Source: Lumbricus terrestris (Eukaryota; Annelida; Clitellata; Crassiclitellata; Lumbricidae). Taken from it: a stretch of 64,000 nucleotides of DNA. Positions 581-51,700 of this stretch are shown here, piece by piece. The position numbers and the translations under genes were made by a program. Below the pieces are notes generated by a model. That model was not told the origin of the DNA and did no database searches. It saw only the letters and a program-made list of their open reading frames with translations. Position 1 is the stretch's first letter. Each line of letters opens with the position of its first letter. Location: NCBI GenBank assembly GCA_949752735.1, contig OX457039.1, positions 22,118,830-22,182,829 on the forward strand, written 5' to 3'.

Positions 581-996
581 CTAAAAATCACAATGAAGTT
601 TTACGTAAACTTTTTCTGCATTTCTGCATCGCATTATCTGCGATAGGCTAATGCCATCGAAAGGAATTTTGTGTAGTTGTTTGTATTCGATGAAAAGCAA
701 GCTGAATGAGCAGATCGAGTTTATTCTGGTACATCGTGGAGCGAAGTTCGCTTTTTTATGCGCTTCAGCTGCGAGAACGATCGCTCGCCAGTGCAATTTG
801 TTAGGCCTACCATTAGACTCAGAAACATACGAACCACCACTTCAAGGTTAGGAACAGCGCTTTTGATGCCGTCCCTGATAATGTCATGCAAATCTTGATG
901 ACTGTATTTCGGCATAGGCCTACCTGGGAACGGCGGTCCCAAATTATAAAATTCCATAAATCGATAGTGCGGAGTATTGGATGGGCAAAAAGACAA
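581..996 (-). pseudogene. hAT transposase C-terminal (dimerisation) domain, broken
   Basis: The minus strand encodes PNLEVVVRMFLSLMV then TNCTGERSFSQLKRIK, the hallmark of the hAT C-terminal dimerisation domain, then changes frame to LLFIEYKQLHKIPFDG. Two interruptions are exact insertions at TA dinucleotides: GL (GGCCTA) within MV-TNC at 802-809, and a 5-bp one at 644-650 whose removal restores the expected FDxII reading. A further 6-bp insertion sits at 915-922. Confidence 0.75.
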
Positions 997-1019
997 AGTG
1001 TGGGTTTTTCATCCAGCAT

Positions 1020-1290
1020 CCATTTCTTAAGCGTTTCTTCATCAATCCAGCTTCTATTTCACATGTAGAAATACCTTCATCCAGCTTCTATTTCACCTGC
1101 AAAAGAACCTTCATCCAGATTCCAATTCTCTTGCGTGCTTTCATCAATCCAGCTTCTATTTCACCTGCAGAAGAACCTTCATCCAGCTCTTATTTCACTT
1201 GCGTTTTTTCATCAATCCAGCCTCCATTTCACCTGTTGCCTAAAAGGTCTTCATCCAGCTTCTATTTCTGAAGCGTGGTTTCTATGCGCC
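1020..1290. repeat. Tandem array of the ~40-bp dispersed repeat (reverse orientation)
   Basis: Six to seven degenerate units of CATCAATCCAGCTTCTATTT followed by CACCTGC and a short spacer. The same core recurs in both orientations at 12.6, 13.5, 18.8, 20.3, 21.8, 26 and 27.4-28.5 kb. Confidence 0.8.
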
Positions 1291-1675
1291 CATCCTATAC
1301 ACCGCGCTATTACGACACGTCAGGTTGATTTATTTCCCAACGGAATGCCGTCAAAACAACGCAAACAATGACGTAAAAAGCTCGAGAAGTTCGTAAGTAA
1401 GTGAATAAGTAAAGAATGAAGAAAATAAGTGAATAAATGCAGCATTAACTGTAGTTGGCTCTTCCTCTGACGAAAATATATGCTTCAGAATTTGGGACCG
1501 CCGTTCCCAGGTATGCCTGTATTTCCTTATATTCACCATTTCTCCAGTTGGATTGGAAGCTTTAATTTGTTTAGCAGGAATTAGGCCTATATGTCATCAA
1601 TATAATTTTTAAGCCACTGATCGAGTTTTTTCTTTAGTTCACTTTTGGAGGCCCCCAGATTCCGGAGGCCATATA

Positions 1676-2440: not shown

Positions 2441-2753
2441 CGGGCTGCGGAAGCTTCAGACCCGGAAAAAATAGCATGTAACAAAGTCACTCAATTATTT
2501 CAATGTTAATAAAAAGAGTGGTTTAATATTTCAATATTAAAATGTAATTATAATTGCAGTAATAATCTCATTGTGTATCAAGTTAGGCAACACTGTTCTG
2601 TTGCTACTGGACTATTACAATGAATAACAGCAGCACACTGGAGTATAATATGTACGCTTACTTTGCTGTACTGAAATAAGCTTACCCTTGTTGTTCAAGA
2701 CGGTCCTCAATTGCTCAACCAGGACAAAATTGGCAGAAATGGTTAAACATGGT

Positions 2754-4106: not shown

Positions 4107-4140
4107 CTGTCACCACCACTTTTAAAAGTGGTGGTGACAG
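4107..4140. repeat. Perfect 34-bp palindrome
   Basis: CTGTCACCACCACTTTT followed directly by its exact reverse complement, with no loop. It repeats the CACCACTTTT motif found in the subterminal region of the surrounding element (also at 6629). Confidence 0.9.
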
Positions 4141-4742: not shown

Positions 4743-6556
4743 CGCAGGAGTTCTCAAACTGTGCACATGGGGTACGCCAGGCACCGGTTAGAGGTAGGGC
4801 CTAGGCGAAAAATTCCAGAAATACAAATTTTCTTTGTGTTTTTGGACTTTGTGTCCATCTTTCTTTGATTAGCAAAAGATTTTTAACGTTGCAACATATA
4901 ACAGCATCATCATTATTTTATTTCTTTCACAACATATAATTAGACTCACATGCTATATAGACCTATTGCATGCAACATATTTGTTTCAGGTATTTTTAAA
5001 AATAATTTTTGAAACAAATGGTGTTTAAATGTGAGCCAGAAATGTCCAGCGTAGGCCTATAGCTTAGAGCTCAAAATAGGGGAGAGCTGTTGTTTTGTGG
5101 ACTTTAAGAAGGCGTTTGACAGTGTAGATCAGAATGTGACATGGGCGGTCTTACAATCATATGGTGTTGATAACAAACTGATTCAACTCCTCAAGGACAT
5201 AAATGGCACCTCACAGGCAGCAGTCAGAACATGTGGCCAGTTAGGAACATGGTTCAGAACCAATAGAGGTATGAGGCAGGGGGATCCAATATCGCCCACC
5301 GTGTTTATTACAGATTTAGAAAGGGCAATGGATAAGATCAAGAGTGAAGAAAAAGGAATATCAGTGCATGGAATTCGTATAAACAATCTGCGCTTCGCAG
5401 ACGATGTTGATATCCTGGAGGAAGATGCAGCAGAGTTGGAGCATACAACACAGATGCTAAACGATGAAGCAAAGAAGTATGGATTATTCAACTTTGACAA
5501 AACGAAAACGATGATATTTGGCGACAAAGATATCACCCAGCGGATTGTTGTGGAAGGTATACAGCTGGAAAATGTAGAAAGGTTTACTTACCTTGGAAGT
5601 AACATGACTTATGATCTAGATTGCGGAAGTGAAATAAAGATAAGAATAGCCAAGGGAACAGCGGTGTTGAAAGCAATGGACAAGATTTGGAAGAGCAGTG
5701 CAATCAGCATGAAAACCAAAATGGGAGTTTTAAAGACATGTGTGTTCAGCAGTATGATGTATGGGTGTGAGACATGGGTGCTAACAAAAGATTCGCAAAG
5801 GAGAGTGTTAACATTTGAAAGAAAATGTTATAGGAAAATTCTGAGAATAGGATGGACTCAGAAGGTAACCAATGAAGAGGTATATAAAAGAGTGGATATG
5901 ACCGAGAACCTCATGCAGAAAGTCATAAAGCGGAAACTTGGATTCTTCGGGCACATTTGTCGAATGAAAGATGACAGAAAGATCAAGACCCTGATGTTTG
6001 GGATGATGGAAGGCAAGAACAGAAGAGGCAGGCCGCATAAAGAATGGACAGATGACATTGAAGAGTGGTGTACAGCAGATTTGCAGAATTTATATCATGC
6101 AGCTCAGAACAGAATGGAATGGAGAGACATTATGAGGAGGGCATCGGACTCCTACGGGCACTGTGCCCATGGTTATTGAATTGAATTGAATTGAATAATA
6201 TTGGCTTAACGATTAATTGCTGGTCGAGCTTCAATTTTTTTTATTCCTTTCAGCACGTCATATCTGTGTGAACTGGTTTTAAAACTCTTCTTTCTATCAA
6301 AGACAAATATGGCCTTAAAATTTGCTCTTGAATTTGACAAATATTAAACCAGATATTTAAATCTGCGCTAGTAAAAACAAGCCTACAACACCACAACGCT
6401 ATAGGTTAGCTCTTTCTTACAGGGGTTATAGACCAATTTTGCCTTTTGTTAATATGATTACATGATTTAAAACTATACATATATTTTAAATTTTGCTCCT
6501 TAATACAACTCTAATACACGAGGTTGAGACAATAAGAATGAAGTTTGAGAACCGCT
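4743..6556. mobile_element. hAT-type element interrupted by a LINE
   Basis: Ends with AGTTCTCAAACTG on the left and GTTTGAGAACCGCTG on the right, the CAGTGGTTCTCAA-type hAT terminus also seen at 17950. Flanks both contain GGGGTA but a clean 8-bp duplication is not certain. Confidence 0.5.
5086..6200 (+). mobile_element. RTE-like non-LTR retrotransposon, 5'-truncated, intact RT frame
   Basis: An open frame (stop at 6177) begins inside the RT palm at VDFKKAFDSVD. It carries GMRQGDPISP, the catalytic RFADD (FADD at about residue 100), YLGSNMTYDLDCGSEIKIR, YGCETWVLT, GHICRM and the C-terminal RRGRPHKEW motif typical of RTE-type LINEs. The endonuclease is missing. The 3' end is a (GAATT)n tail. 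About 360 codons without a stop imply a fairly recent insertion compared with its neighbours. Confidence 0.82.
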
Positions 6557-6902
6557 GGGGTAGGCCTACTGTAACATAAAGCCGAGGAAAGAATTTAACT
6601 AAAAAGTTGTGTGCCAAGGAATAGTCACCACCACTTTTACGGGGAAAGTTACGCCCATGATCACGGTATATAATAACAAGTACAAAGCGCTTAGTCTATT
6701 TAAAGAAGTAGTCATTTAAAATATATCCCATCACTGAACAAAATAGGCCTATAGTATAAAATAAATAAGAGCAAGAATAAACCTCATTTAACCAGTTTTG
6801 CACAAGTTGGCTAAATACAGAACTTAAGAAGCTTGTGGAGTTTTGAGCGTCGAAAATTTTTTGCCCCCCCCTGAAAAAAACTGAAATGACGTCCCTGCCA
6901 CT

Positions 6903-8255
6903 GAGCATCGGCTTTCTGCACTCCAGGAGATTTCGAGTGAGGAGCTGCGTCGACTCATCCTCTCCTCTGCCCCCAAGACCTGTGAGCTGGATCCTGTGCC
7001 GACATTCTTGGTTCAGAAATTGATCGACGATCTCCTCCCCTTCCTCACTGCCCTGTGCAACTCCTCGATCCGTGATACGTGTCTTCCTGCCTCGCAGAAA
7101 CGCTCCGTTCTTCTACCTGTTTTGAAGCGCGACGATCTGGATCAAAGTGATCCAGCAAACTATCGCCCTATTGCTAACGTTACATTTCTATCTAAGATAC
7201 TGGAACCAGCTGGTTGCCAACCAGCTGATTACTTATTTGGACATGAATGATTTGATTCAGTCGCAGAAGTCGGGTTTCCGTCGGAATCATTCCACGGAGA
7301 CTCTCCTGCTTCGACTTTTGTCTGACTTCTATGGCGCAGTTGACCGTGGTCAAGTCACTCTCCTCGCTCTCTTTGACGTAAGCTCTGCCTTTGACTCTGT
7401 GGACCACTCAATTCTCCTGCAGCGCCTCTCCACTTCTTTTGGCTTAGTGGGCCAACCTCTTGATTGGCTTATGTCCTTTTTAACGGACCACTCAAACTGT
7501 GTAGTTCTTGGGTCGTCCAGGTCTGCTTGGGTCCCTGCCCCTCTTGGGGTGCCCCAGGGTTCCGTCTTGGGTCCGCTGCTGTATCTTCGCTATACTGCTG
7601 ATATCTGCTCCTTACTGGCATCTCAGGGGCTTCTGCACCAGCTATTTGCTGATGATGTGCAAGCCTGCATCCATACCTACTCAGCTGATGCGGTGGCCGC
7701 TGTCAGCCAGATGTGTAGGAAAATGGGTGTTCACTCTCTCTGGATGGCCTCCAATCGGCTACTCTTAAATCCCTCCAAAACACAGTTTATTTGGTTGGGT
7801 GGCCATAGGCAACTCCAGGGTACTGACCTTTCCCAACTTGCTCTGCTCCTTGTTGGGCGGCTTCCTAAATTTGCTTCTGTCTCTGCCTATATGCGCGGAT
7901 CTCATACCGCATTGCTGCTGTGGTCTCTCACTGTGTCCTTGGCTGTGCTCCGAAATACTTGCATGATCTTTGCTGCCAGTCTCTGACATTGCAGCGCGTC
8001 GTGTGCTTCGCTCTTCGGCTATGGGTGAGCTTCTGGTCCCGTGGGCTCGCTTAGCTTATAAGCAGCGCCGTGCTTTCTCAATCGTGGGCCTACTGTCTGG
8101 AATGACCTCCCGGTTACGCTTTGCTCTCTACTTGTGGTCCATCCGACTGGGTTCTACAAGTCTCTCAAGTCTTTTTTCTTTGTTCGTGGTTGGGTTGGGA
8201 GCGCCTCTGAGTAGTTTCTTGAAGGGGCACTGTATAAATGCTCTGAATGAATATG
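6903..8255 (+). mobile_element. CR1/L2-like LINE, RT to 3' end, frameshifted
   Basis: Encodes LDPVPTFLVQKLIDDLLPFL, NYRPIANVTFLSKILE, then in another frame GFRRNHSTETLLLRLL, LFDVSSAFDSVDHSIL, GVPQGSVLGPLLY and FADD, then the C-terminal WN-LP module near 8090. It ends GAGCGCCTCTGAGTAG...GAAGGGGCACTGTATAA, which is the tail shared with the SINE family. Frameshift near 7205 and internal deletion near 7840. 8256-9195 contains nothing I can identify. Confidence 0.8.
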
Positions 8256-9198
8256 TTGGTTTACAAACTGACCAAATATCATCAAATTCTGAGATGGTGT
8301 GGTGGGGACCATTGGTTGATTTGACATGGAATGATCCAATTGCCAATTACATGACTAAGGTAAGGTAAAGCAAATATATACACTTAAGCCTAGTTCCGAT
8401 GAAACACTCAACTAGCACCTAAAACTATAACTTTTAAGCTAGTATAAAAACTGTTAAATAGGAAATTACACGAGCAGAATTTCAAAAAAAAGAACACATA
8501 GCCTAACACCTGATTAGATTTGGCCACAAGATAAACAAGATGCAGGCTAGATTTGAAAACCTTGATTTCCAAAAGTATCACAAAATGTCTTCTGAAGTTG
8601 CAGAATGCATGATATCTCTGAAGTACCGGTATTTTAAACATTGCAAAAAATTTGTACTTTTCTTTAGATTTTTGCAACATGTTCAACAAGAAAAATTTCT
8701 GAGATGGCCAGATGGGAACAGTTAGAAATTAGAATTGAATTTAAAATGACTATAATGTCCAAATTGTATTATAGCAATACCAAATGAGATGGAGAAGTTG
8801 GAAGAACTTCAACTATGATGCAGAGTAAAAGCAAAGTTATACAAAAGATTATGATTTCAGGCAGCTAGTGGGAGGGGCGTGATGATGCATGTTGCTACAT
8901 AGTCAAAATAGAAGAGCTGCAAAAAGATAATTGGGGAAGAGAAAGCCACTGAATAATAAAAACTGCTCAAGTATAGAAATATATTTAAATGGATTCAGCA
9001 ATATAATTCCAGCAAAAGTGAAAAATAGCAGTAAATAAAAGACAAGCAGGAAGAAATATCATCAGGAATTCATTTTGTTCTTACGACTTTTGAAACCGTG
9101 GCTCCCATTAACAGAACTGTTCGTACTTTTATCACGGAGTGTTGTGTGCTTACCTAATGCCTGCATGGACCCACAAAAAACTACACATCTTGTTTTCC

Positions 9199-9574: not shown

Positions 9575-10721
9575 GGGGTCATTGCATAATTACGTAACGC
9601 CGAAAATGACTGTTTTCGACCCACCCACCCTGTAACGCTTCGTAACGTTGCCCTTGACCCACCCACCCTCCCCAGCGTTACGTAACGATTGTTACAAAAA
9701 ATCAGTTGAGATTCAGGTCTATTATTGACTTATGTGAGCGCGTAATTATAATTCATATTTTCATAGTGAATTTAATATAGCCCAGTATGTGAATTATAGG
9801 CGGATATGACAGTATAGGCTTAAAATATACACAATGTTTTATTTATATAAATGAGTCATGCGTGAACTGCAATTTTTTTAAATTAGGCTATACTGCAAGA
9901 ATAAAATTTTACACTGCTGAAAAGTTTCACGGACTAAATGGCTCATTAACAATTAATCAAAATTAAGATGAACTAATTGGTTTTTTTTAGTCTGGGCACT
10001 TCGATAATTATTATTAATAAAAATATCGCCGAGTTTTGTTGAGCATTAATAATAAATGTTTGAGATCGTGTCCACTAAGTAAGACATGCTTCAAAGTGGC
10101 TCTTCCATGTCAGGAATCCAAGGAGAATTAGACCTACCACGCTGTTCCGTTGGTAAAACAGGTCCAAACAATTCGAAAAGCGGTTTCCGGTTTGCACAAT
10201 GGGAGAACAGAATTGACCTGACATGTAGGCTTACTGGTGTCTGCTGCCGGATCTTATTCAGATAAATAGACCTTTTTCCGTTAAGTTTTAAATCATTGTC
10301 ACGAAGTTTAAACTTCGATCACATCATGTCTAAAGTGTCATTCGATGGTAATTTAATATTCATTAATAAATTTTTTCCATGGCATTACGTAACGTTCAGC
10401 TTCACTCACCCACCCACGTAATGTTTCGTAACGTTTTCAACGACCCCACCCACCCGTGGGGCGCGGTGGTGTAGTGGTGGCGTCGTTAACTTGAAGCCGG
10501 AAGGTTCGAGGTTTGAATCCACCTCGCCGCGTAAGGACCTTGGGCAAGTCCTTCACTCACAATTGCTCAGCGCTTCGGCGTGAAACTCCGATGCAGTGTC
10601 CGCTCTGCATTCGGGAGCACCTCTGAGTAGAGAGAGATTGAAGGGGCGCTATAACAAGTGCACATACAAACAAACAAACAAACACCCACCCTCGAGCGTT
10701 ACGTAATTATGCAATGACCCC
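9575..10721. mobile_element. MITE M5 (TIR GGGGTCATTGCATAATTACG) carrying a SINE
   Basis: GGGGTCATTGCATAATTACG at 9575 and its inverted match ending at 10721. Subterminal regions repeat CCACCCACCC and GTAACG motifs. A SINE is inserted at 10456. No coding frame. Confidence 0.75.
10456..10684 (+). mobile_element. tRNA-derived SINE (family S1)
   Basis: Pol III A-box-like GGTGTAGTGGTGG and B-box GGTTCGAGGTTTGAATCC near the 5' end, then a body, then GCACCTCTGAGTAG and GAAGGGGCGCTATAAC, and an (AAAC)n tail. Flanked by CACCCACCC on both sides. Other copies: 21410, 32711-32941 (minus) and 49584. Confidence 0.88.
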
Positions 10722-10955: not shown

Positions 10956-10976
10956 ATTCAGATAGCTCCGACCACA

Positions 10977-11864: not shown

Positions 11865-14800
11865 CTGAAAAAATAACCCAGACAGCTGATGATAATCATG
11901 CATACTTATAATAATAATCACACTCTTTATTATTTCAAACTGAAAAACGCAGTATGACTACAATCAGTAATGAATGAATGATCAAAGCTATTTCAGGAGT
12001 CGAATCTATTTCACCATTCCATCCAGCGAATGATAGGCTGAGCGAACCTTTAAGAAGGTAGCGGGAACATCCCTGCTTCCTTTTGATATTCTGCTGTTTA
12101 CACCAGTGATTTTACCATTACTCTATGGACTCCACTTATCCACAAGACAAGAAAAAATGTCAGGCAATTTAATGTGAGTGATTAGAATTATGTAGTTACA
12201 GTAGGTGCAACTGCATTTAAACACTGAATGCAGCACTATTATGAGCATTGTAGGAGTAGTAGGCCTACTACAAATCCATTAAACGAATTTCGGGCAGATC
12301 CACCAAATCAATTTTCACAAAACCTACCGGTAATGATTTTTAGATACTAAACTGTAACCAACAACACTTAATAGGTCCAATCCATTACGCCATGTATTCA
12401 ATTTAACTCTGAATAGTTTTCGGAGGTCCAGCAGCTTTCTATTATAAAACTGTTTTTGAGAAATCGGGTTTTTGTGTATTTTCAGCGTTTTGTAGATTCG
12501 GGTTTCAGGGATTCAGCTTGACTCCAATAGCTTTTGGTCGAATCCACGTTGATTTGACGCAAAGATTTTTGCTACACAGAAGTTGGATTGATGAAATGAA
12601 TTTTTCATAAATTGAAGCGGAATTGATGAAAAGATTCTTCCTCAAACTGGAGTTGGATTTATTAAAAACTAGCTGTACCCGGCCACGCGTTGCTGTGGCT
12701 GAAAAGACCGTCCAACCCTCCCTCCCTACTTCCCTTCCCCTGCCTCCCTCCCTCCCTTACCCTGCCTCCCTCCCTCCGTTCCTCCCAACCTCTCTTCCCT
12801 TCCCTCCTCCATCCCTCTCCCCCTTCCTTCCGTTTCTTCCCCTCCCTCCCCTCCGTCCCTCCCCCTCCATCCCTCTCCTCCCTCCATCCCGTCCGCTCCC
12901 TCCCCCTTCCTCCCGCTCCCTTCCTCCCACACGGCCGCATTCAAATGCAAATAAATTGAATTCGCTGAAATCGAATGCAATGTTGTGTTTTTTCGAGAAA
13001 AGCATATAAAAACCAGTCGGCTCCAACGTTGTGTGAAAATTGTCAATCTAGCCTTTTCTTGCCTTTTTTCGACCGGATCTGACCTTTTTCAAAATTCAGA
13101 GTGGCATCCCTGGCCTTATTCAAAATTCAGAGTGGCATCCCTGTACGTTATAAATACACGGGCCAAAATGGCGGAGTATGCGGTAAAATGTATAAACGTG
13201 TCAACTCGAGGATAAAGTTGTGTTTTTTTTTGGTAAAAGATTTGTTTCTTTCCAGGGAATCCTTTTACAAACATGATGGTATTCGAACGGAGCGTTTTGC
13301 GAAAAATTTCAAAAGAATCGGTGATGAAGTTTCCGAGATAACCCATTAGGACCAAACTTTTTACATTTTCATTTATATAGATACTGGTAAATTATCGTTT
13401 TTAAATAGCGAATTTAATTATTCGCCATTGTATGAGTTTTAGTGATGGTTGTCTACAAGTTGGATTAACGAAAAGATTACTAACTAAACAGAAGTCAGAT
13501 TGATGAAAATAATTTTTACTTAAATGGAAGCAGGATCGATGAAAAGATTCTTGCTGAAATTCATAGTTGTAAAAAACTTTTTTCCATTTTTTATTCTCTC
13601 CCAAAAACGTCGTTTTTCGGCTTTTATTTTTCTCATTATTTTTTATCGTTTTTTAATATTTTATGTAACTTTCATTTATTTATTTACTGTCTATTATTAT
13701 TTTCATTATCAATCAATCAATCAATCAATCAAATACTTTATTGATCATCGTAAAACATGTAAGTAGTGTAGGTATACAGGATCTGGGACAAGATGGCGGC
13801 TAATTGCTTTTACCACTACCACTGCTAGGACTAATTGCTTTTTAATTGACGGTTGTCCCAGAAATGGTGGCGGGTGACTAATGACTTCCTTTGATCTGAT
13901 GATTAATGGCTTTTTAATTGCAGGCTGTCCCAGAAGTGGAGACGGCTCTCATCCTTTGATGTGATGATTAATGGCTTTTTAATTACAGGACGTCCCAGAA
14001 ACGGACTCGGACTCAGCTGACGAATGTAATTACTGTTGACTAATGGCTTTTTAATTGCAGCCGGACAACGAGAGGGGGTCTTACCCTTGTGCTGCCTTTG
14101 TTAATTACGGGCTTTTTCTTTCTTTTCGACTGATCAGAACCTCTACGCACCATATTACACGTCGCGACCCTCGGACTATCACTGTTAACAGGAGACACCA
14201 AACATTCTCTAAATTCCTGGGCCAGAGGGGCCTAAAGTACATCCATTCTACGGGGCTCAGCCCTAGGCTTCGCCGCGGGTACATTCCTACCTAGTCGACA
14301 ATAACACAACTCGAAGAAACCCTACCTATCTATCCCTAGGCAATACCGGCAAAATACTCTACAATGCGGCTTGTTTCCGCGAACAAGGGGACACACAAGG
14401 AAACACACGGGATTAACCCTGACTTAGGTTATGATACAATTTCGCATAACTATGTGAAAAGGCCACCGGCCAGTTTTCACGGGGAAATAGCCAGTTGTGC
14501 AAATGTCACGTCCCTAACGATGGAATTGCCCCAACACAAAGGGTGCAGGAGCAGGCAAAACTGTGAGGGAAGCCAGGGGCAATCACGATCGACAGCAGAC
14601 AGGAAACACCACAGCGGGAAAAATACGCGAAAACCACGAGTGCAGGAGACGCGGAGATCATACGCTGAATCCGTAAGACAGAAGGCTGCGCAACGACCAC
14701 AAGCTCTGCTGACAAAAACAACGTGCGGCAGACCAGCCGGAGCAAATAGACCAACAGCCGGCAACTCTAATGGAAAGATGGGGAAACACAAGGGCTTAGC

Positions 14801-17800
14801 GAGAAAATACCAGGCAAAATTCATGGGAAGCTAAACTGGGATAAAGTTCTACGTTCAACACTAGGCAGCGTAGGCAAGGTAACAGTGCGAGAAACTAACG
14901 GCTGACAGAACAATGCTGGGCGCTACAACCAAGGCTGGCGACAGCGAGCGTTACTGATAGGCAAACGTGGAAGGCCACAATGAATAAGAAAAGAGTATCT
15001 TCAAACCAAGCAGCGTCCGTCTGCAAACAACCAGAGTCTCTGTGTCACTCTGTAATGCGAATCGCCCGCTACATGCGGTGTCGCTAAATCACAGACTTAT
15101 CACGAGTAACTGGTAACTCGGGGCACTCTCACCCCATGATCACAAGGGAACACGGTCTCTACCGCAAGGACCACGAACGTTATCAACGGAGTCGCCCTTC
15201 TCAGTAACACTGAGTTTATGGCCTGGTGGATGCTGAAGCCACCGTCGATCTATAGTTTGTAATGACAGATGTACCGTCCTCTCACAGACTGCATATTCTG
15301 CACTTCTCAAACAGACCCGTGCGCCTCGCGCCAAACAATTCCGGAGATCACAGCCTCTCCGCGATGACACACACACGAATCCCTCACGTCCCCGGCTTCG
15401 TGGCTTAGAGAGGTTGTTCTCTAACCACTATCTTTACGTGCTTCGCAAGCAACGCTCAAGGGGACCACAGCTCCCCCTGTAAAAGACCACCCTCAATAAA
15501 CACATCGGAGCTCAAAACCCCCGAGATAAACAACAGGGTGAGGTCCTGCCAGATCTTCGCTGAAAGCCCGAGTGCCCAAACATGTTTCTTTCAACAGTGA
15601 CATGAGATCACCTGAAGATAAATTTTGGATAAAACTGCCCGAAAATAACCTTTAGTGTATCACACAAGAGTGCGAAAGACACAAGGAAACGAACACGGCA
15701 CTGTATCGAACCGTCACGTATATGCAGAGCAGTAGCAACCACCTTACGTATATAGCAAAGCACCGTGTGGCAGGCTTTATTCCACCCATTTAGTTCTGTC
15801 TGCATGCTATGCCTTGGCATAAAACTGATAATTGTTCTTCCCTACGAAAAATTCAACTTTTATGGCGTTGCTGACCATCACAGCTCACTGTGGTGTTGCT
15901 GGCCTTTATAGCTCCCGGCGGTGTTGCTGGCCGCCCATCATACCCCACTGTGCCGTGTCCCCGACCGTAATGTCTCACTGTGGCGTGTCTGGCGCATACT
16001 TACTTTTGCGCAAGTTAAAAAATTAGAATGTTTGCTATTTTTTCATTGAATCAGTGTAGCAAAGTATCTAACAGTGTTTTTGTCATTTAGTGTTTAGCTT
16101 TGGCGTTCTAGAAATTAGACAATCAAGCCAAAAATGCAGTTATAAAGTTCCTATAACCATGACAGTAATGTATTCAGACGATTGCAAAAATGTTAATTTT
16201 GCAAAATTTACGCCCACCGAAATCTACGCTCATTACAAATAGGTCTACAACTTCAAAATAGTATTATGTATCCTATATTGTAATGAATCACCAAGTTACC
16301 CAATGTGCTGAATAGTAGCCTACCGTCTTCATGTGCACGCCTGCTGCCTATAGATTAAATGCGTTCGTTCTGTCATAAGCCAAGACAGCACGCGACGCTC
16401 TTGTGTGACCGCTTTGAGAAACTTCGCCTAATACATTTTATTGTGTGGCCGTGAAGTTCTGGAATTTTTTATACTTTAAGTTTGTGCATTACTACTAAAA
16501 ATAACGATCTTTAACCAAAAATTCCTCTATAATATCATCCCATTCGGCGGCCGCCATTTTGATTATCGGCCATCGCTGTCGTTGCTATGTTGAACTGTCA
16601 CGCGCCGCAGTGATTTTTAAGTAAATCATAGACCAATGGTTTTTTTGGCTCATTTTGTAAATGAGCAAAAAACGGAATGCCAGTACCTTGGAAAAGGGAA
16701 TACGAAGTTTCAGATAAGAGTTAAACGGTCATCAACTGGGACAAACAGAGAATTTCGTGTATCTGGGGGAAGCATGAGTACACAAAAAGACTCAATGGAG
16801 GATGTGGTGAGAAGAATTTAGGGTTGGCAAGAGGGATACTAGAGACAATGGGAAAGGTGTGGAGTTCAAGGGAAATAGGGAGAGCAACAAAAGTGCAGAT
16901 GTACGAAACACTAGTGCAGAGCGTGCTGTTGTACAATGCGGAAACCTGGACACTGAGAGACGAGCAGAAACGACGGCTGAGAGTCTTCGAAATGACTCGC
17001 CTGCGGAAAATAGAAGGCGTTACAAGAAGAGACAGAATAAGAAACACAATGAATTATGAAAGATTGAATATCAAACAGGATATAATTGAAAAAACAGAAC
17101 AGAAGGAACAGAAGACTGCGATATTTTGGACATGTGGCAAGAATGGAAAACGAAAGATACCCAAAGATAACGTTCAACGGATATGTACACGGAAGAAGAT
17201 CGAGGGGAAGACCAAAGAAAAGATGGATAGATACGATAAGAGAGGACTGCGAGGCGCTGGGAATGTCGGTGCAGGAGGCGACGCATGTGGCGCGGGACAG
17301 ACAAAAGTGGAGAGCTACCGTGGAAAAGCGGCTGAGGCGTTCTGAAGGCATCGCCTGACGGCCATAAGTCAAGTCAAATCAAGTCAAAGACCAATTAGAT
17401 AAATTAGCAAGATTTTGTCAAAATTTGCGCAAATATCGCGCAGATTGCGAATTTTTGCACTGTTGCGCGAAACCAATTTTGCGCAAAATTGGCGCTGCGC
17501 AAGATTGCGAATTTCTGGGGCCCTACTTAAGTAGCCGCCTATTCGCTATAAGGTGGAACAAAATGTTGCCTCATATCAGAGTGAGAAGTGAACTACCAAA
17601 ACCTGTTATAACGACAGACTGTCAAATGTTTTGCGATTATCCGAACTGACTAAAGAGCTCAAATTTTCTTAAACTAAGGCATTCTTACCGCATCTTAATC
17701 ATTCCATTTTCTCCGTAAATGGGGTGAAAGTATCCATGTAGTAAATAACTTTCACAGTTTAAATAATACAAAAGCGTCCGCACCCAACAGGCTCATTACT

Positions 17801-20800
17801 TGTATAATTATTCATGCAGGTCATTTGTGAGTTGTGACATAACTGTAAAAAGCAAGTAAAATGATTCTAAGTCAAGTCGAGGAAACAACGATCTTGGCAG
17901 TTATGATCAACTCGATCGATCAATTCGATCAACTGCGGGGTATATAAGGCAGTGGTTCTCAAAGTGATGGTCAGTGGACCGGCTCCAGTCCATGGAACAT
18001 TGATCACCGGTCCGTGGAGAAGAGTTAAATTAAAAACAGATTGCATTTTTTAAGATTTTTATATTTTTGTGTTTATTCTGGTTTCTGCGTTTTATTTTGA
18101 GCAGATATTTCTATCATTAAAGCACAATCTTAGTAATGTGTCTTTAGCTATATATTTTTGCACACCCACTATAACAGAATTAAATTCACTTCTAATTCAG
18201 TTTGAAAATTTGAGTTTACCTTCTAAATCTAAAATAACCTTCTAAAATATAATTGCATGAGAATTAAATTGACAAATAAATTAAATGTTGCCAGGAATGT
18301 TTTAACTATTGAAACAAATCCCTGTTTATTTAACTTATACATCGCTTTTGTTTGCACTCACCATTTAGGCCTAAGTTAGCGGTCCGCGAGCTTCAACAAA
18401 AAAAATTATTGCCGGTCCGTGGTCTGTAAAAGCTTGAGAACCACTGCTCTAAGGGACAATTGAGGTATGTATGCCTATGCTTTTGAAGTAGCTTAACACA
18501 TTGACTGCCTACACGCCATGTTAAATGACTGACTGAAGTACGTATATATACGTACGTGGCACTCAATGTGTTAAATGATCAAAAAGTCTTCACTAATACA
18601 GCAAAGCTATTGATAAACAGCATAATTTTAATCTTTCAATACTTAAAGTGCCTATAGAGATCGATACGATTGTAGAAACACGTTATGGGCGTCATTTAGA
18701 TAAACGTGTATTTCAGCGTCTTAAATTATTCTCTCGCTGCAGCATTATTATTTTAACCTTCTAATCAATTCAGCTTCTGTTTAGTCAAGAATTTGTTTAA
18801 TCAATCCCGCCTCTATTTACGCAGCAATTATTTTTTCGTCAAAAAAACTTCTATTTAATTACAAAATTATTGTTCATCAAATCCAGCTTCAATGTCGGCA
18901 AGTTTGTTTTCATAAATCCGACTTTTATTTAAATAAGAATTATTTCCATCAATCCGACTTCTATTTAGCGAGGATTCATTTCATCAATGCGGCTTGTTTT
19001 CGACCAATGAGGAAGTCCATGCAATGGCAAATAATCTACGGCACTAAAACACATTGTTAGATACGCTGTATGGAAGGGATGGTGGTGTAGTGTGGAGGTG
19101 TGGTGTCAGAGAGGGAAGGAGTCAGTCAGCGCCAAGTCATGAGTGTGAATGGTCATGCACGTCTGATTAAACATGTAGATATGGTCACCAATAAAGTGTC
19201 CAAGGTCGTGGGCATTTTATGTAAGGTTGGGCATGTACTTAGTGTACTACCAACTGAAAAATTGAAGCTTTTATACCATACCTTACTAGAACCATATATA
19301 TCAATTACTGTTGTGTTGTTTGGGCTTCTCCTTACAAAACTTGCAACCTGGACCGCATTCTGAAGCTTCAGAAAGCTGCATGTCGTATTATTTCTCACTC
19401 TCCTTATTTGGCTCACTCCAACCCTTTATTCAATAAACTTAACCTTCTCAAAATTTATGACCTGTGCTACTTGTCTATTGTCGTCCTTATGTTCAAATTT
19501 GGAATTAATGTCTTACCCCCATATTTAAAAATTATTTTATGAGCTCAATCTCACTCATTTAATGCTTGTGGTTCGTAATTATGTTATTCATTTTGCTCGC
19601 ACCACCTGTCGCTTCAATAGCTTCAAAATTCTAGGTCCTCGTTTATGGAATTCACTATCAGATGATGTGAAGAGGGAAAATAGTTTATGTACCTTCAAGA
19701 AAAAGTCAAAGCTTTAGGCTTTGTTTTTAAACTATACTTATGTTGATTAACTATTTGGTCTTTATACCTGCATATCTCCACTTGCAGTATCTAGGCACTC
19801 TGTATGTCAGTATTCCTTACAGATAGTTGATAATGATGCTTTCTGGTGTCTTTTATGTCAATGTGGTTTGAGTTGATATATACTGCTGCACTAATATTTT
19901 CTTGGTATTATTATTATATTTACTATTATTTTTATTATTATAATTTTCATATTATTTTTATCACTAGTACTTTCACCAGTTATGTTCTAGTTAAGTGAAA
20001 TAATAGCATGCATAAAAATAGTCAAGGAAGAGGGGTCCGGGTAGTATAAGCTGTTAGCTTTTCCAGACTCCTATTGCACTGTACTTTATTGACTCACATT
20101 TGTACCGTTTGACTTTTGTGTGCAATAAATAAATTCATTCAATTCATTCATTCATTTAGGAAGAAGTCTTCGTTAATCCCGCTTGTATGCCATCAACACT
20201 AAATCCCATGCATTGGCGAATAATTTACTCTGCTAAGACAATAGATGATTACCCTATCGCTTTAGCGTTCTAGATTATTCGCCAAGTATAGCAATGTCAT
20301 TTTTCATCAATCTGACTTCTACTTTGGCAAGAATTCTTTTGATCAATTCAGCTTCCATTTAGGCAAGGATTCGTTTCATCAATCCAGCTTCTGTTGGAGT
20401 AAAAATCATGTTTTCATCAATCCAACTTCTATTTAAGCAATTATTTTGGTGAAATATTGTTTAGGTGAATTTAATTATTTTTCCAAATATGTCATTTCAT
20501 AGGATATCATTTCATAGGATGCAGGGCATTTTTCACTGGAAATATTTTCACGGACATATATCCCTCATGACAGTTACCCTCGGACATTCCCCCTTCCACT
20601 CCCAATAGCATTTCACCCCCTATTCCGAAATATGCTAAAATGATCTCTCTGTTAAATATTTTTTCTAATTATTAGTGTCTCTAAACAAATGTGTAACAAA
20701 GTGTCTATAAATGATGGATAAACATGTTGTAAGATGTAAATGAAATTGTCTCGTTGTTTGGTCCAGGAGGTCCCAGTTTCAACATCTTATTTCTTCAAAC

Positions 20801-24426: not shown

Positions 24427-24436
24427 GTCTTTCAGC

Positions 24437-36700: not shown

Positions 36701-39700
36701 TCATCGAGGCAACAAACTTCGTCCAGAAGTACAGGCATTTCGACTTGGAATACAAAAGTCCCGTGAAGCAATTGATAATTCCATTGGTGGTAAGTACAGC
36801 ATAATCTAATATATCACAACACGCAGTGTTCTAGAAATTCCAACTGAAAAAGCAATATTGAGTTACAATAAAACTTAGTTACAGCTGCAGCAACTAAGAA
36901 AGTTAAAAAACAACATTTTCTACAGAAAATTGGAACTGTTATTGATGTGAGGTTGTTATGTTAGTTGTTAGAGTTATTAAGGTTACTTGTGTGAAATTGA
37001 GCACTTTTTGTATGAAAATTTCATAGCTATTTTGGGTGAAATTTGAATTACTGCTTTTAGCAAAGCAAATTCAGAATCATTTGCATTACATTAAGAAAAT
37101 ACTGCCACAAAAATATTTTGAAGGAATTTCATGTCACATGAATTTTTTTATCAAGGGAACACAGTGCAGTGCATCTTAATTATGTGAGTGTCACTCTAAG
37201 TATGAATTAACTTATAGTTTTGCCTTTGGAATCTTACTAAAAGTAGAAACATGTTTCATGCATAAAATTAGCATGAGCTTGAGAGTGCTTGAAGAGTGTG
37301 TGCAAGAATTTTAATATGAATATTGAATAATGATGAATATAGGTGTTTAAAATGTTCAGTAGGTCTGTGATCACCGTTGGTTAGTTTAGGATGAATTCTT
37401 TTAAAGCACAGGTTTGTCAGAAAAAAGGATTGCACAAATCCAGCTGTATGGTCATCAAAGAATTTTTGCAAGAATGAAAGAAAACCCAGACATAAGAGCA
37501 TGAGAGATGGAGATGTATATGATGTGAATAATCTTTTGAAATGCATGCAAATAGATACATTTGTTACTATAAACATGTGAATATGTACCAGTAAAGAAAT
37601 AAATCAATCAATCGTAATTTGTATAGCGCCCCTTCAAGGTACCTACTCAGAGGCGCTCCCGGCCGAGATCAAGCGAAAAAAGTCTTTAACAGTTTGTGAA
37701 ATTGAGAACAGCTTGGGAGGTGTCACATAGTCAAGGGAAGTCCATTCCAGGTTGTTGGACCAACCACAGAGAACGAACGCCTCTGCATTGTTGCAGAGCG
37801 AGTGAAAGGAACCATTATGTCACCATGGACAGCAGAGCAATATGCAATTTGTCATGACATGTGAATTGCACAGCTTACTGCTTGCTACTGGTATACATAA
37901 TCTGTTTCACTTTTGAAGAAAATGCTGGACTACACTTGCAGAACAGAGGAGATCTTTCATTCTTTTTTGAAGATCACCAGCAGGTTAGTGAAGATTTTGT
38001 AACTTACTTTTTTCATATTTGTTGTGGTGTAACTCTAGCCATTAGGTTTGCATGATGTCAACTTTTTTAACCTAGGCAGTCTGAATGAATCTAATCAGGA
38101 CTTTAAGCACTTCCGCACTTGCGACCAGCCAGATATTGCATTCGTAATTAAATCAGTTGTTTTAATTTTTTTTTAAATTCTAATTTTTACTCCTCTTCAT
38201 TATCATTTGTTAACTTCAGAGGACCTTCACCCCTCTTACCTCTAAGGTAGACTGAGGGAAGTGAGAGCTATAGGAAGGGGCTTTCCGAATGCCGGTCTTG
38301 GGGAAGTTGGGGTACCACCCCATACTCTGTATAAGGCCTAAAAAAATAATGTTGTGTTTCCGGTAACAGAGCTCTAAAAAATTGGGTAGGTAGGTCGAAA
38401 AATATTTTTATTTTGGTAAAATATTTTTATACAGTGGCTATCCGAAAAATTATACCCCACTACTCTTTTTGCATAAAGCAAGTATAAACTGCCTACCGGT
38501 ATTTCTTGACTGTCTGCACCTAAAACTGCCCTAGAAAGCAATTCTATTAATTTAATCTTGTTGACATCTTTTCTGGTAAGATAAAGTGGGAAGGGAAGGG
38601 GAAGATGAGTGCGAACAGAACATCACTGCTAGGGGTTGTTCCAGACTGGCCGAGCCAGTGACTAGTTACACCTAGAGGTTGCTAGATTTATTTTCCCTAG
38701 TCACCATTAAAGGTGACTCAAGTGAAAATGATAAGGCTAGAGGTTTCTCAAGACTGGCAGCCAGGAAGTAGTTAGGCAGGCGTGAAACTCTAAGGCAATG
38801 TCACTGTAATTATTTGAGTCGCGGCAATAAAAGAGGGTCGGTCGGGTTACTGGAAACGCAACATTATTTTTTTGCCTAACGCTAGCTATTGTCCGCTAAT
38901 TTCCTTATGGCCACCTGGCAACCCTAAAGCACTTGGAGACAAGCAAGCCTAGTTCAGGCGAGGAAGAAGCAGAATAATAGATGAACAGTTCACAATGGGA
39001 GAAATTCTTCCAAAAAACACAGAACACAACTAGAAAGTCATCATCAACTTCATAGACTTCACGCAAGCATTTGACAGCATATGGCATCATGGAATGTGGA
39101 CGATAATGCAAAAGGCAGGAATACCAGAGCAACTTATCAGACATGTACAAGGGATATATAAAAAATGAAGTACTTAGAGGTTGATAAAAAACATTCATAG
39201 AATACTTTCAGTAAAAACTGGAGTATGAAAAGGATGAATCTTATTTTCTTGCCTGTTTTACCTACTATTCAACCTTCTGACTTCTTTAGATCTGCCTTCA
39301 GCCCTTCACTGATCTGTCGCCTACTTTGAAGTGTCAAATCGTCTCAAAAGCATGGTTTCTAAATCATCTCCATGGTGGATTTCATACCATCTCCTATACT
39401 TTCCTGTTCTGATGTTTTCTCCCACCTTATTGCCCATGTAGCAAACCTGTCTTTTGGTTAAGGGCGTTTTTCGTCATACTTCAAATCTGCTCTAGTCACA
39501 CCCTTGCTTAAAAAACTTGACCTAGATTACAGCAGCCTTTCTAACTTTTGACCCATCTCCAACCTCAATAGCATTTCCAAGATCCTTGAACGTCTCTTTC
39601 TTGTTTGTATTAACCCCTTGGCTGCCCTATTGACGAGAGGCTCTATTCATGAACTATGTGCATGCTGTGTGCCCTGTTGACGAGAGGTACACGTCAATAT

Positions 39701-45700: not shown

Positions 45701-48700
45701 ACCACATTCATTCAAAAACTCTGCATCACTCCACTCATAAATTCTGAACCGCAGTTCGATAAGATTTCTTTCGGAAATCCAAACATTGTAAAGATTGACT
45801 TTAAGGCGCTAGCAACATCTTGTGCAGTATGATTACGCAATGGAAAAGCAAACGGATAATGCGAAGCCAAATCGATAACTGTCCATATGAACCTGTTGCG
45901 AGATTTTTCGCATACACTCAACGGACATACATCGTACATGATGCATTCACACAAATGTGAATGATTTTTATTCATTGCTTTCTTTGCTTTGCTGGAGATG
46001 TTTTATAATTATATTATTTCTAATTTGACTGTTTAGTTTTATATCCTACACTAATTTGTTCAATTTATTCACTTCTAAATTTTGCAGTAGGTCACTCTCT
46101 GTAGTTTTTGCACAGAAATGTTAACACCATGTTCTTCTATCACTTAATCATAGCCAGTATGCATGTGTGAACTTGATTTCTAGAAACCAAAGTCATCTGC
46201 ATCACATGGCAAAGCAGTTACAAAATTTGAAGAAGCTGTGGAAGAACGACAAACTAAATCTGGACACAGAGACAACAAAACATGCAAGCAACTCCTAGGG
46301 GAACTGTTTGCTGACAAAGAATTTCTAGAAAAATTGCTGCAGGAAACTGGTGAGAACATTTAGAAAACATTGAGAATGGATGCAATGCACAGTAATGCAG
46401 TTTACTTCCATCTTGATTTTGATAAGTCTGTCTGTCTATATCCGTATTGCTTCTGCTCGTGGCCAAGAGACTATTGTTTGTGATAGATTGATTTATGTGC
46501 TCCATGCTATTTACATCTGCATATTCTCTGTTGCCCAGTGTCCAACATTGCAGTGTAGTAATAATAACAATAATAATAACAGTGACGATTTCTATGTTGC
46601 CGTAACACAGCTACACAGTTACAAGGGCGCCTAGTTTGTTGGGTGCTTTGCTCTGTGATGAGGGTGAGCTTTTAGTTCCATGGGCTAGTAGGCATTGTCA
46701 ATCGTGGGCCCCTCAGTGTGAACTGATCTCCCAATAGATCTGTGTTCATTACTTGTGACCAACCCACAGTGGTGTAGTTGAGTCCACCTGAGCCATGTCT
46801 GAGACAAGTCCAAGTCCATATAAGCTGAGTCGAGTCCAAGTACAAAACTGTTAGAGTCCGAGCCCAAGTCACTAAAGATTGAGTCAAAGTCCGAGTCAAG
46901 GTCCTTTAACATCAAAGTCCGCTGAAGCACTCAGTTTTGTTCGAGGATCTTGCATGATGGGTCAAATAAAAATTCTTCTGCTGCTAAACACCAACAGGCA
47001 ATGCACTATAATTATTATACGGATAAAGTCTGCTGTGCTGAGATTTGTCGCCAAAATTGCTGCATATCAGCAATGTCTCGCTTGTTGCTGTTTAAGGACA
47101 TTGTGCCATGTGAAGGATGCTTAGTATCACCCTCCTCCTTTCTCCAGGCTTAGGACTGGCACTGCCAGAGTACAAGCGGTGGCAGTATATACCAAATGAT
47201 CCTTTTATGGTAAGTGTTCTAACTGTTCTGAGTCTGTGGAATGGTGAATAACCAATCCAATATTTGCCCTTCTTACACCCCAATACAAGCTAACTAAGTG
47301 ACCTGTGATTCTGCGATCATTCTGTAATCGGCCAATTATGTAGGCTTTGAGTTTGATCCTATATGGAGGTGTAAATATAATTCTGCACTCATTCCAAGAT
47401 CAGAGAAGTTCCAACAGCCACTGTCCAAAATAGCCAATAGATATGTCTAACCCTCCCTCATCCTCATTTGTCCTTCTCAGAATATTACCCGTAGTGTCCA
47501 CTGTGGTCAAGCCCATAGCCAGAGGCAGAACCAAGATGAGGCAGATCCATCCTCCATAAAGACAAAACTTGTTGTGAGTATGGGCAGTCGATGAATGAGT
47601 GGCCGAAGGACAATCACCAAGGTGTGAAGCACCAAGCAGGTGAGGATTTAGGGAGGGATGCACCCCTTGCTATTCTTTCCAATTTTTTTCCTCACTGAAA
47701 TTTTAACATTTTAAGCTTTCAGCTAAACAAAATTGCTCATTATTTCAGTGCTGTTAGATATGGTTTATGACTTCAATAAATGACTTATTATAATAATAAT
47801 AATAATAATAATAATTTCTTTATTCATGCATCAAGTTCAGCAATGCAGTTTTGCTCCTGCTCCAGAGCAATGTCAAGATAATGCTTGTGACTGGTGCATC
47901 TTGACATTATATCAAATTTTTCAGTTATATGTCACTTGTAAGTGAGGTGAAGATACATACTGAGGAGCACTCCCAGCCCAGCCACGGCAAAATAAAAAAG
48001 ACTTGAGATATTTCTGAAACAAAGTTTGATTGACCAGATTTAATAAAAGCAGCTTTAAAGAAAGATCATTCCAGATAGATGACCTTTCAACCGAGAAAAT
48101 GGATTGGGATGGATGACCTCGTAACAGGTATGGACTTGCAGGACATCGTACGCATCGCTTCGATTAACCCAACATAAATGATTTCCTCCCGTACGCTAGT
48201 TGGTACTCAAATCAACCAATTGTACGAACAAAAGAAGAACTGGATTCGTCAGATGCTCAATGATGCGGTTTCTGTAGCTGTAACGGCAGACTACTGGTCC
48301 TCTGTGGCTGGGGTGTATTCTGAATTTTTTAGGTGAGTACACGCTGCCACCGAAAAAATTGACTTTTTCGTGCAGAAAATTTTGGACGCCATTTTTTTGT
48401 CCTAAAATTCTTTTTAGTCGTCAGATGATTTTTGGACGATTTTTTCGTCCGAAATGCTTTCTCACGGCGTAAAACGCTTCGTAAATCACGATTTTTTTCT
48501 TGCGTATACTCACTTCGCCTTTGTGAGGTGAGTATACGCTGTATACCCGTGTGTAGTATACCCTCGTTTTCAGAGGTGAGTACACGCTGTCATTTTTTCC
48601 CCGGAGATGAGTATATACTGTATACCTGCATATACCCTAGAATACAGCCCTGTCTGTGGCCAAATGACAGCTAGGCCTACTTAGGAATGACCGCAAAGCA

Positions 48701-51700
48701 ACTGGGATTTAAAGACGTTTGCACTTGCAGTATTACATGTAGAAGGACGACACTTTTCTGAAGCCTGTGTTGAGCACATCAAACATCAGTGACAAGTTCA
48801 TGGGCTATTCGTGATGAAGTAACAACGATTTGGATTGACAATACAAGAAATATGAAAACTTCTGTTGGGTTGCTACCTTTTCATCATTATGCCCTGCCTT
48901 GCAAAAAGTCTGAAGCTCGATGTGATGGAACGCATTCCTACATGCATTCAATTAACTGCAATTAAAAATTTTAATCGTGTTATTAACACAATTAAAATTT
49001 TTAAGAGAAATGCAACTCTAATTAATACATTTATAACGTGTATAGAATACAGTTAGTGATGTTAATATTTTGTCTATGTTTTTTGAGTAGAAGCAGCAAG
49101 TAATCAATCGGAAACAAACAAAGCGATACGAAGTCTTGCAATTCAGGGCTTGGACTATCTGGACACAAGGACTGAGTTTTGGCAGCAGCAGAAGCCCATG
49201 TATTCTCGGAAACGGGATAAGAATATGCGAGAGAATACAAGTCAATCAATCGGATATGAAAAATCTAAAAATCCAACTCAGTGGGTTCTAAAGAATCTAG
49301 AGGTTATTGACGAAGGTATTTCGAGAATCTTCTTTGATCTCTATTTTTCTGTTTATCAAATAGAGTGAGTCAGTGCTTTCTAAAAATTGTAGCAAGCCTT
49401 TTTGAACTTATGGGCTATTTAACAATAAAGGTGAGTAAACAGATTAAAGTTCATTGTTTACTTATGTCTGCCTGAACTGGCTGTTATTATTAAATTAGTG
49501 GAAATGATTTCAAACTTTTCTTATGATATCTGTTACAGTGTTACTGCATCGGACCCAGTTAAGAAGTACTCTATTTTCGCGGTGGGGCGCGGTGGTGTAG
49601 TGGTGGTGTCGCTGTCTTGAAGCCGGAAGGTTCGAGGTTCGAATCCGCCTCGCCGCGTAGGGACCTTGAGCAAGTCCTTCACTTGCAATTGCTCAGCGCT
49701 TCGGCATGAAACTCCGATGCAGTGTCCGCGCTGTAGTCGGGAGCGCCTCTGAGTAGCAGTTGAGGGTTGGAAGAGGCGCTATAGCAAGTGCGCATACAAA
49801 GCACCCGTATATAACATGTGCCCGCATATAATAGGGTAACCATTTTCTTGCCATCAAAAACCGAGACACTTTTTTGATAAAACTAACAATTGTAATTCCT
49901 TAGGTACGGGACTATATAGACCAGGGGTCTCAAACACGCGGCCCGCGGGCCGCATGCGGCCCGCGAACCCGATTAATGCGGCCCGCGAACAGCTTCCTGG
50001 TTTTTGATTTTTTTAAATTAGAAATCGGTTTAAAAGAATTTTGCAGTTCTTTTACGATTTGAACCAATGTTTAAACTTTCTACTCCTTTTGATTGGACAT
50101 AGAATTCATAACAGGAGATAGGCCCATAGGCAAATGCAGATGGGGTTAGTAGACCTTCAGTGCGATGTAACGCCGAAGCAGAGGAATGCATAGCAAAGTT
50201 TGTATGCCGGTGTCGCAAAATATAGTATCCCCGGAATAATCGTATCTCCCCAGATGATAAGGAGAAGTTGAAAAATGTCACTTCCGCGTGCATTTATTTT
50301 TGCAAGTTAACTTCCATTTGCAATGACACTAACAGGTAGGTCCTATGTTTATTCCTATAGTTTTGATGACCTTGGGTTTAGAGGACTTGAAGAACGTTTA
50401 GAACACCTAAGAACACTCAGAATCTCTAGGCCTAACTAAATTCGATATGAAGTACTCTGAACATTGCTTAGGATACTTTAATAAATTATTCATTCTAAAT
50501 ATTGATTACAGCATAATTTCTTCAATTATAGCGCCCACGAATTTTTCGATAATTGGGATAGAATGGTTTTCCATTTTTGCTTGTAGTACCATTTTAGTTA
50601 CACTTAAAATATAATAGTATGTGAATTTTACAGGGCTATGTCATCATTACAGTAGGCTATTGTATGCTGCAATGACACATAGCCTAACTAATTCCAGTTT
50701 CACGTGCACGATTAGCCTATATTTTTATGTTGCGGCCCGCGAGTCATTCGAAATTTCCAAATGCGACCCACATGCTGACTTGAGTTTGAGACCTCTGATA
50801 TAGACCTACAAGGGCTTAGTCCAATTGAGTTTGCTATTAAAAGGGGCGAAAATCAGAAGGGCGAAATCCAAATGGCGCAATCAAGAAGGTGAAAATGAAG
50901 AAAGCGAATTTTCAATAAGGCGCAACAGACGAGAATTCTACTGCTGTCATCCTGCCAAAGGGTTGAAGTAGCCCACGAAAACAGGTTCAAGCCTTGTACT
51001 GGTATGGTTTAATGTGTCGATCACAAGCGACACAAAATAGGCTTATTTATAATTTATTACACTGGAATGGCAAAATTAGCCTAGAAGTCAGGATTGTTTG
51101 CCCAGTTTTAGGCAAATTTTAGAGTAGACTGTTAGAGTAGGGTGGTGTCACGGTATAAAGTCTCCCCGATATAAAGTCTCCCCCAAAACAGAGTCTGCCC
51201 CTGGCTGAAACTTTGTGTTGTAAGAAATTTTCTGATATAAAAGTGTATACATTTTCTTGTTAAATAATTTAGCAACTCACACTAACCGGTTAACCTGCTC
51301 GTATATCAATTTTATGCAACTGTAGCCCAATTCACTTTAATTTGTCGACAGAGGAAATATTCTCTCCCCCGGAGACTTTATTTCAGAATATAATCTCGGG
51401 GGTGGGCAGATTTATTCTGGAACAGATCCGCCAGGGAAGAATCTGTTTCGAAATAAAGCCTCCGGGAGACTTTTAAGGGAGATTCTGTAGGCAACACGGG
51501 CTCCTAGACCTATTAGCTAATTAGGCCAAAAAAAATAATGTGGTGTTTCCGGTAACCCGACCGACCCTCTTTCATTGCCGCGACTCAAATAATTTTGTAA
51601 AAAAATTTATTTAAAAAAATTGTTATTTAAAAAAAGTTTAAAAAAAAAAAATTTTTACAAAAATTTTTTTACAAAATTTTAAAAACTTTTTTAACAAACT

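Follow-up and report, generated by a model that had tools for sequence, protein, structure and literature searches.

Transposases of the Tc1/mariner superfamily such as Sleeping Beauty make their cuts three nucleotides within the element, so that 3-nt 3' overhangs remain (PMC7827188), and the Sleeping Beauty footprints TACAGTA and TACTGTA are 5-bp insertions (PMC4378557). The Stowaway and Osmar mariner elements of grasses leave 1-4 bp of tip sequence between TA duplications, and the footprints described are few, varied and from one intron (PMC1925063). PIF/Harbinger elements, represented by mPing, duplicate 3 bp of target and excise mostly precisely (PMC4561436). Here, two short words in the genome of Lumbricus terrestris are analysed, the octamer TAGGCCTA and the heptamer TAGGCTA with its complement TAGCCTA, both of which are probably excision scars of one family of TA-inserting, cut-and-paste transposons of the Tc1/mariner kind. 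The analysis started from a window of 64,000 nt on contig OX457039.1; positions without a prefix are counted from its first letter.

The two footprints of Sleeping Beauty probably arise by a mismatch at the middle base. ISL2EU elements pair a Harbinger-like transposase and a YqaJ nuclease with a target duplication of 2 bp. DNA transposons usually leave few excision scars relative to resident copies, which is why copies serve to gauge their past activity; in L. terrestris it would be the scars that carry the record, with no credible copies seen in the sequence examined. The scars resemble those of Sleeping Beauty in the TA target duplication, in the few tip bases between two TAs and in having a 5-bp class whose middle base is ambiguous, as from a mismatched overlap. 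They differ in reading GGC instead of CAG, in an extra 6-bp class via the self-complementary GC, and in their very large number with donors not visible. Stowaway and Osmar likewise leave tip bases between TA duplications, whereas here two uniform words occur at approx. 540 per Mb above chance. The likeness to PIF/Harbinger lies in Harbinger-like copies within the window, whose tips start with GGCC and which are flanked by the 3-bp duplications TAA and TTA. The scars, in contrast, carry a 2-bp TA duplication and are 6-bp insertions, not the 7-bp insertions that go with a 3-bp TWA target. An 8-bp duplication of the hAT type is not seen at the scars either, where TA alone is duplicated.

Abundance of the octamer and the heptamer

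The first-pass annotation listed TAGGCCTA at 13 window positions, all of them exact, and put the number expected from base composition at about one. In 100 dinucleotide-preserving shuffles the mean was 0.66 and the largest count 2, and a second-order Markov expectation is 0.49. Heptamers number 12 in the window against 4.6 expected, so that some of them are chance occurrences. A wider sample comprised 25 stretches of 10 kb (L121-L145) from five chromosome-scale contigs of the source assembly (C1, 98.9 Mb; C2, 84.4 Mb; C4, 77.2 Mb; C5, 72.5 Mb; C6, 69.6 Mb), with 15 of the 25 on C1. The first 20 stretches hold 59 octamers (1.3 expected) and 75 heptamers (12.6 expected), while the last 50 kb (L141-L145), sampled after the scar idea had been written down, contain 13 and 20, respectively. 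In the pooled set of window and stretches (311,951 bases; 312 kb below), 85 octamers stand against 2.25 expected and 107 heptamers against 21.4. The excess of the words is thus confirmed beyond the window. Octamers and heptamers exceed expectation by similar numbers, approx. 83 and 86, and the sum of approx. 168 corresponds to the density given above, which would extrapolate to several hundred thousand scars per Gb. Octamers are unevenly spread, with 0 to 11 per 10-kb stretch, and part of the stretches that have none consist of tandem arrays.

Word classes were ranked by enrichment with the tandem-array loci L121, L133 and L137 dropped. Among 136 classes of TA-NNNN-TA, GGCC ranks first (36-fold), followed by TATATATA (15.0) and TACTACTA (14.5), both microsatellite-like, and by TACCGGTA (6.9). 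GGC/GCC leads the 32 classes of TA-NNN-TA at 4.9-fold, with the runner-up at 1.6. When the 16 three-base overhangs that could anneal through a palindromic dinucleotide are compared, GGC is again first (36-fold), ahead of the microsatellite-like TAT (15), CCG (6.9) and CAT (5.8). GGCC is flanked by TA on both sides 84 times (2.3 expected), and each of the 15 other palindromic dinucleotide contexts occurs 0 to 6 times, near expectation. The excess of GGCC is therefore restricted to TA flanks, and the unit is TA-core-TA. A lack of excess in the wider genome, which would have told against the first-pass reading, was not seen in the sampled sequence.

Several rarer words are also raised in the 312 kb: TAGGACCTA/TAGGTCCTA (6 vs 0.93 expected), TAGGGCCTA/TAGGCCCTA (5 vs 0.93) and TACCGGTA (10 vs 1.5). 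Single-substitution variants of TAGGCCTA number 122 against 68 expected, at least five of the 122 lying within one tandem array, which suggests scars of mixed age with a per-site divergence of roughly 7%. Two candidates for decayed scars in the window, TAAGCCTA and TAGACCTA, were weakened: five of nine TAAGCCTA lie in a tandem array, and the repeat partner of TAGACCTA at 28891 reads TAGACCTG with no gap. TACATGTA is frequent as well, with 65 occurrences against 5.9 expected; after filtering against TACA-like neighbours 43 of these remain, of which the arrays of L133 and L137 contribute 24 and other places 19. L133 and L137 are tandem arrays of the host genome with units that contain TACATGTA, and L121 consists of AGTTG-type repeats.

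Insertion polarity

Three of the 13 window octamers could be polarised as insertions, one is suggestive and nine were not polarised (Table 1). At 802, the Gly-Leu pair is missing from all four hAT homologues found (P0121-P0124), and the alignment score is 176 with the site filled and 188 with the flanks joined. At 915, the 29-bp inverted ends of a miniature inverted-repeat transposable element (MITE) agree at 29 of 29 positions except for GGCCTA in one of them; the protein comparison is undecided (93 both filled and joined). At 50427, the bases are absent from all four other aligned window copies of the M2 MITE; the gap measures 6 bp in three of them and 5 bp in the fourth, and two of the four are the arms of one element. 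These three cases, which the first-pass annotation had read as 6-bp insertions, stand as it described them. A fourth, at 48672, was placed exactly, and the proposed split of a hAT reading is suggestive only, as the protein search gave no homologue. The heptamer at 644-650 does break a hAT frame, as had been claimed: with the flanks joined at TA, both halves fall into one frame and the score of the best homologue (P0122) rises from 64 to 113. The same hAT pseudogene was thus hit three times within 280 bp.

In the 312 kb, DNA alignments cover 11 of the 85 octamers, and relatives lack 6 bp at six of them (50427, L145:140, L122:7772, L124:2322, L130:2614 and L130:9650). The two L130 sites represent one event in two copies, and at L145:140 a second relative has another, differing insertion in this position. 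Independent octamer insertions thus number seven (802, 915, 50427, L145:140, L122:7772, L124:2322 and L130), each of 6 bp. Clean heptamer insertions, each of 5 bp, number three: 644, L138:6609 and L131:2496, the last being a copy of the MITE end at 911-1517 that reads CCTGG-TAGCCTA-ATGGCGG when compared with the window end by eye. Self-alignments yielded 270 insertion places of 3-12 bp, of which 27 are of the TA type; the core found most often among these is GGCC (six rows, five of them independent).

The empty site is TA by DNA comparison at 915, L145:140, L124:2322, L138:6609, three of the four copies at 50427 and one L130 relative, and by protein comparison only at 802 and 644. At these sites the insertion point is precisely TA and the scar is bordered by a TA at either end, as in Tc1/mariner elements. 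The original proposal would have been overturned had the octamer belonged to the repeat consensus, with deletions in the copies lacking it; this test went in its favour, the word being absent from relatives at the majority of testable sites. The claim that octamers are 6-bp insertions at TA accordingly held at the testable sites, with L135:854 and L140:3350 as exceptions (see below).

Target preference and probable common origin

The base adjoining TA is biased in the same way for both words: C is over-represented and G under-represented (chi-square p 6e-7 over 170 octamer flanks and p 1e-8 over 214 heptamer flanks). Octamer targets are enriched 4.8-fold over background for GTAC, while ATAG and CTAG together occur twice instead of the 12 times expected. 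The densities of octamers and heptamers correlate across the 25 loci (Spearman 0.64, p 6e-4), a value that includes the empty tandem arrays and is aided by them. The shared flanking bias and the correlated densities indicate that a single process is probably behind both words.

A model for scar formation

The element would insert at TA, duplicating it, and would be excised in Tc1/mariner fashion by a 3-nt stagger inside the element. With tips of GGC...GCC, each flank would then end in ...TAGGC-3', with GGC as 3-nt 3' overhang. As GC is self-complementary, the two GC dinucleotides could anneal over 2 bp, and repair would yield TAGGCCTA, a 6-bp insertion. A full three-base overlap would instead pair the outer G-C bases around a G.G mismatch, which could be resolved to either TAGGCTA or TAGCCTA, a 5-bp insertion. 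Tips of GGC...GCC with a 3-nt stagger are preferred because only they predict both the octamer and an equally abundant heptamer from paired overhangs, and both predicted products top their length classes, next to the weaker excess of TACCGGTA and TACATGTA. A 2-nt stagger at GG...CC tips, ranked second within the same idea, would give the octamer by fill-in, while the heptamer would need a poorly paired overlap. The suggested Tc1/mariner-like source with GG...CC ends is thus refined to GGC...GCC, with excision scars as the best account of the words, while the element itself did not turn up in the 312 kb. Because no donor was found, we infer the transposon as scar maker from the words, together with the stagger, the tips and the action of a transposase.

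Each jump would leave one scar and copy number need not rise, so that scars can outnumber copies over long times. Long conservative hopping could therefore let scars pile up while copy number stays low or falls to nothing. It is possible, although we hold this only tentatively, that L. terrestris records a highly mobile, conservative transposon with on the order of half a million scars per Gb and almost no copies; in a bolder version, the transposon would be eliminated from the soma in a programmed way, with a scar left behind at each site. If the scar account is right, counts of TA-core-TA octamers and heptamers would serve, in any genome, as a simple detector of transposons that are lost or hidden, would reveal tips and stagger and estimate the resulting load of 5- and 6-bp insertions, and would open a direct test for somatic elimination. 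Among the matches listed from open PMC papers, judged by titles and abstract openings, no description of TAGGCCTA as a transposon scar was found. A 1997 note on rainbow trout reportedly contains TAGGCTA twice and TAGCCTA once, and similar words occur in other fish sequences; these are leads, not tests.

A number of observations weigh against excision scars of a single family. The alignment at the L140:3350 octamer shows a gap of 5 bp, not 6; the octamers at L131:6642 and L131:6871 align only to each other; the alignment at L126:2618 is unreadable; and the octamer at L135:854 faces a TAAGCTTA of the same length, so that insertion is not supported there. The alignments that cover the 11 octamers also cover six of the 107 heptamers, and none of the six shows a clean 5-bp gap, L140:1146 and L131:6635 having partners of the same length; the polarity of the heptamer therefore rests on fewer cases. 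Where TA is expected, relatives of L122:7772 read AA or AG, those of L130 mostly CA, and one of the four copies at 50427 GA. The GGNCC and CCGG insertions and words are unaccounted for by a GGC overhang and may represent variants or a second family; TACCGGTA octamers could be a second class of scar. No blunt fill-in product TAGGCGCCTA occurs in the 312 kb, which is uninformative at 0.07 expected. In known families scars are usually far outnumbered by copies, and the 917 pairs of TA-GGC...GCC-TA spaced 50-2500 bp apart in the 312 kb include no credible element.

Search for a donor element

The only one of these 917 pairs to pass (10 of 12 inverted matches and a sharp boundary) is built of nested scar words and was rejected. 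Resident elements with matching tips and terminal inverted repeats, as in Tc1/mariner families, were thus not found in the 312 kb, in line with the earlier statement that no intact donor was found in the window. A low-copy donor may reside elsewhere in the genome. The same inverted-end test with CAG tips retained three of 1134 pairs, in L128, L130 and L141, which are probable resident Tc1/mariner-like elements (Table 1). The scars expected of them, TACAGTA and TACTGTA, show no excess in the 312 kb (37 vs 45.5 expected). Residents without visible scars are thus present alongside scars without visible residents.

Several further donor candidates were rejected. The segment at 30170-31464 is hAT-like, with TAGGGTTGCC ends and the 8-bp duplication TATGCTAT; another end of this family lies at 38926. 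The candidate at 26394-27196 consists of inverted arrays of 15-bp tandem units (TTATTGCTCATAGGC-like), which are perhaps subterminal repeats of an element. L128:6818-7348 lies inside the CAG-tipped element at 6788-7376. The segments at 38335-38876 and 51524-52337 are Harbinger-like and approx. 84% identical to each other; their tips read GGCC, but the duplications beside them are TAA and TTA. Among the matches listed for repeat families beginning at TAGG (25 of 35 in one search), no boundary was judged to be a donor end. Viral contigs were also scanned for pairs of octamers, which gave at least 120 loci; we take most of them to be chance, and L080, L089 and L029 are rich in TAGGCCTA. In the same viral collection, L089:4561-4793 and L080:2626-3912 contain clusters of TAGGCCTA and related palindromes and are perhaps organelle DNA.

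Alternative explanations

The absence of donors from the 312 kb would also fit break and repair directed at TA with no transposon in residence: TA would be cut symmetrically by a nuclease or an orphan transposase, untemplated G-rich ends would be added, and joining would leave GGCC or GGC. The symmetric target bias agrees with this, and the rare GGNCC words (TAGGACCTA/TAGGTCCTA and TAGGGCCTA/TAGGCCCTA) hint at loose ends. Untemplated additions vary, however, yet two exact cores dominate, and TAGGTA (0.86-fold) and TAGCTA (1.24-fold) are hardly enriched; we consider this explanation unlikely. Programmed excision, in which germline elements are removed from the soma like the internal eliminated sequences of ciliates and a somatic assembly shows only scars, would account for a uniform scar and for approx. 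168 of them above chance without a credible donor. It is nevertheless very improbable, as the scars seem to decay like old germline changes, to judge from the single-substitution variants described above, at least five of which lie in one array.

Excision of a transposon remains the probable source of the words, and two further readings fare worst. Direct insertion of TA-GGCC-TA as a four-base mobile unit, the product of extreme MITE shrinkage, fits the exact 6-bp insertions at TA but does not predict the equally abundant 5-bp class, and we know of no transposase that mobilises four-base ends, which makes it scarcely plausible. That the octamer is an ordinary motif, either a binding site or part of a repeat consensus with deletions in the copies lacking it, hardly deserves credence: it agrees with the same-length TAAGCTTA in the single aligned relative at L135:854 and is already refuted for the polarised sites, with the bases missing in relatives at three window sites and in four further events, while the flanks of the 13 window octamers appear unrelated by eye.

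Features of the window

The coordinates of the words and of associated elements are collected in Table 1.

Table 1. Putative scar words and associated features, by window position or by locus and position
Feature	Position	Strand	Remarks
TAGGCCTA	454..461		no relative for comparison
TAGGCTA heptamer	544..550		not polarised
TAGGCTA (TAGCCTA on minus strand)	644..650		5-bp insertion at TA; frameshift in hAT (DUF4371-type) transposase pseudogene
TAGGCCTA	802..809		6-bp insertion; adds Gly-Leu to hAT motif MV-TNCTGERSFS
MITE, 607 bp	911..1517		within hAT pseudogene; flanked by 8-bp target duplication TGTATTTC (903-910, 1518-1525)
TAGGCCTA	915..922		6-bp insertion, present in only one inverted end of the MITE
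TAGGCCTA	1582..1589		in hAT pseudogene that also holds 802; homologue alignment ambiguous, not polarised
TAGGCCTA	5052..5059		adjoins open frame of a long interspersed nuclear element (LINE); not polarised
TAGGCCTA	6561..6568		not polarised
TAGGCCTA, then TA	6744..6751		not polarised
TAGCCTA heptamer	8499..8505		not polarised
TAGGCTA heptamer	9884..9890		not polarised
CCDC51/MITOK exon	10977-11957	minus	sole host gene identified; window annotation not systematic
TAGGCCTA	12260..12267		not polarised
TAGCCTA heptamer	16316..16322		not polarised
TAGGCCTA	18366..18373		not polarised
TAGGCCTA	21976..21983		not polarised
TAGGCCTA, then TA	30644..30651		not polarised
TAGGCTA heptamer	31242..31248		not polarised
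TACCGGTA	38494..38501		6-bp insertion (CCGGTA) at TA in Harbinger-like copy; two relatives without it
TAGGCCTA	48672..48679		splits probable hAT reading NDS-YLGMTA; suggestive only
TAGGTCCTA	50337..50345		7-bp insertion at TA in M2 MITE copy; rare GGNCC variant (GGTCC); three aligned copies without it
TAGGCCTA	50427..50434		6-bp insertion in M2 MITE copy that also bears 50337
TAGGCTA heptamer	50653..50659		not polarised
TAGCCTA heptamer	50680..50686		not polarised
TAGCCTA heptamer	50713..50719		not polarised
TAGCCTA heptamer	51077..51083		not polarised
TAGGCTA heptamer	53162..53168		not polarised
TAGCCTA heptamer	54720..54726		not polarised
Probable resident Tc1/mariner-like element, TA-CAGGGTG ends	L128:6788-7376		inverted-end test
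Probable resident Tc1/mariner-like element, TA-CAGGGTG ends	L130:4770-5759		inverted-end test
Probable resident Tc1/mariner-like element, TA-CAGGGTG ends	L141:1993-3211		inverted-end test

The window is animal nuclear DNA. Outside the host exon, much of it derives from transposons, including LINE reverse transcriptase, hAT, Harbinger-like and MITE sequences. The exon owes its name CCDC51/MITOK to matches in Patella vulgata and Limulus. Its top named relatives are from Owenia (50% identity) and Patella (48%), and two further relatives are 91-93% identical.

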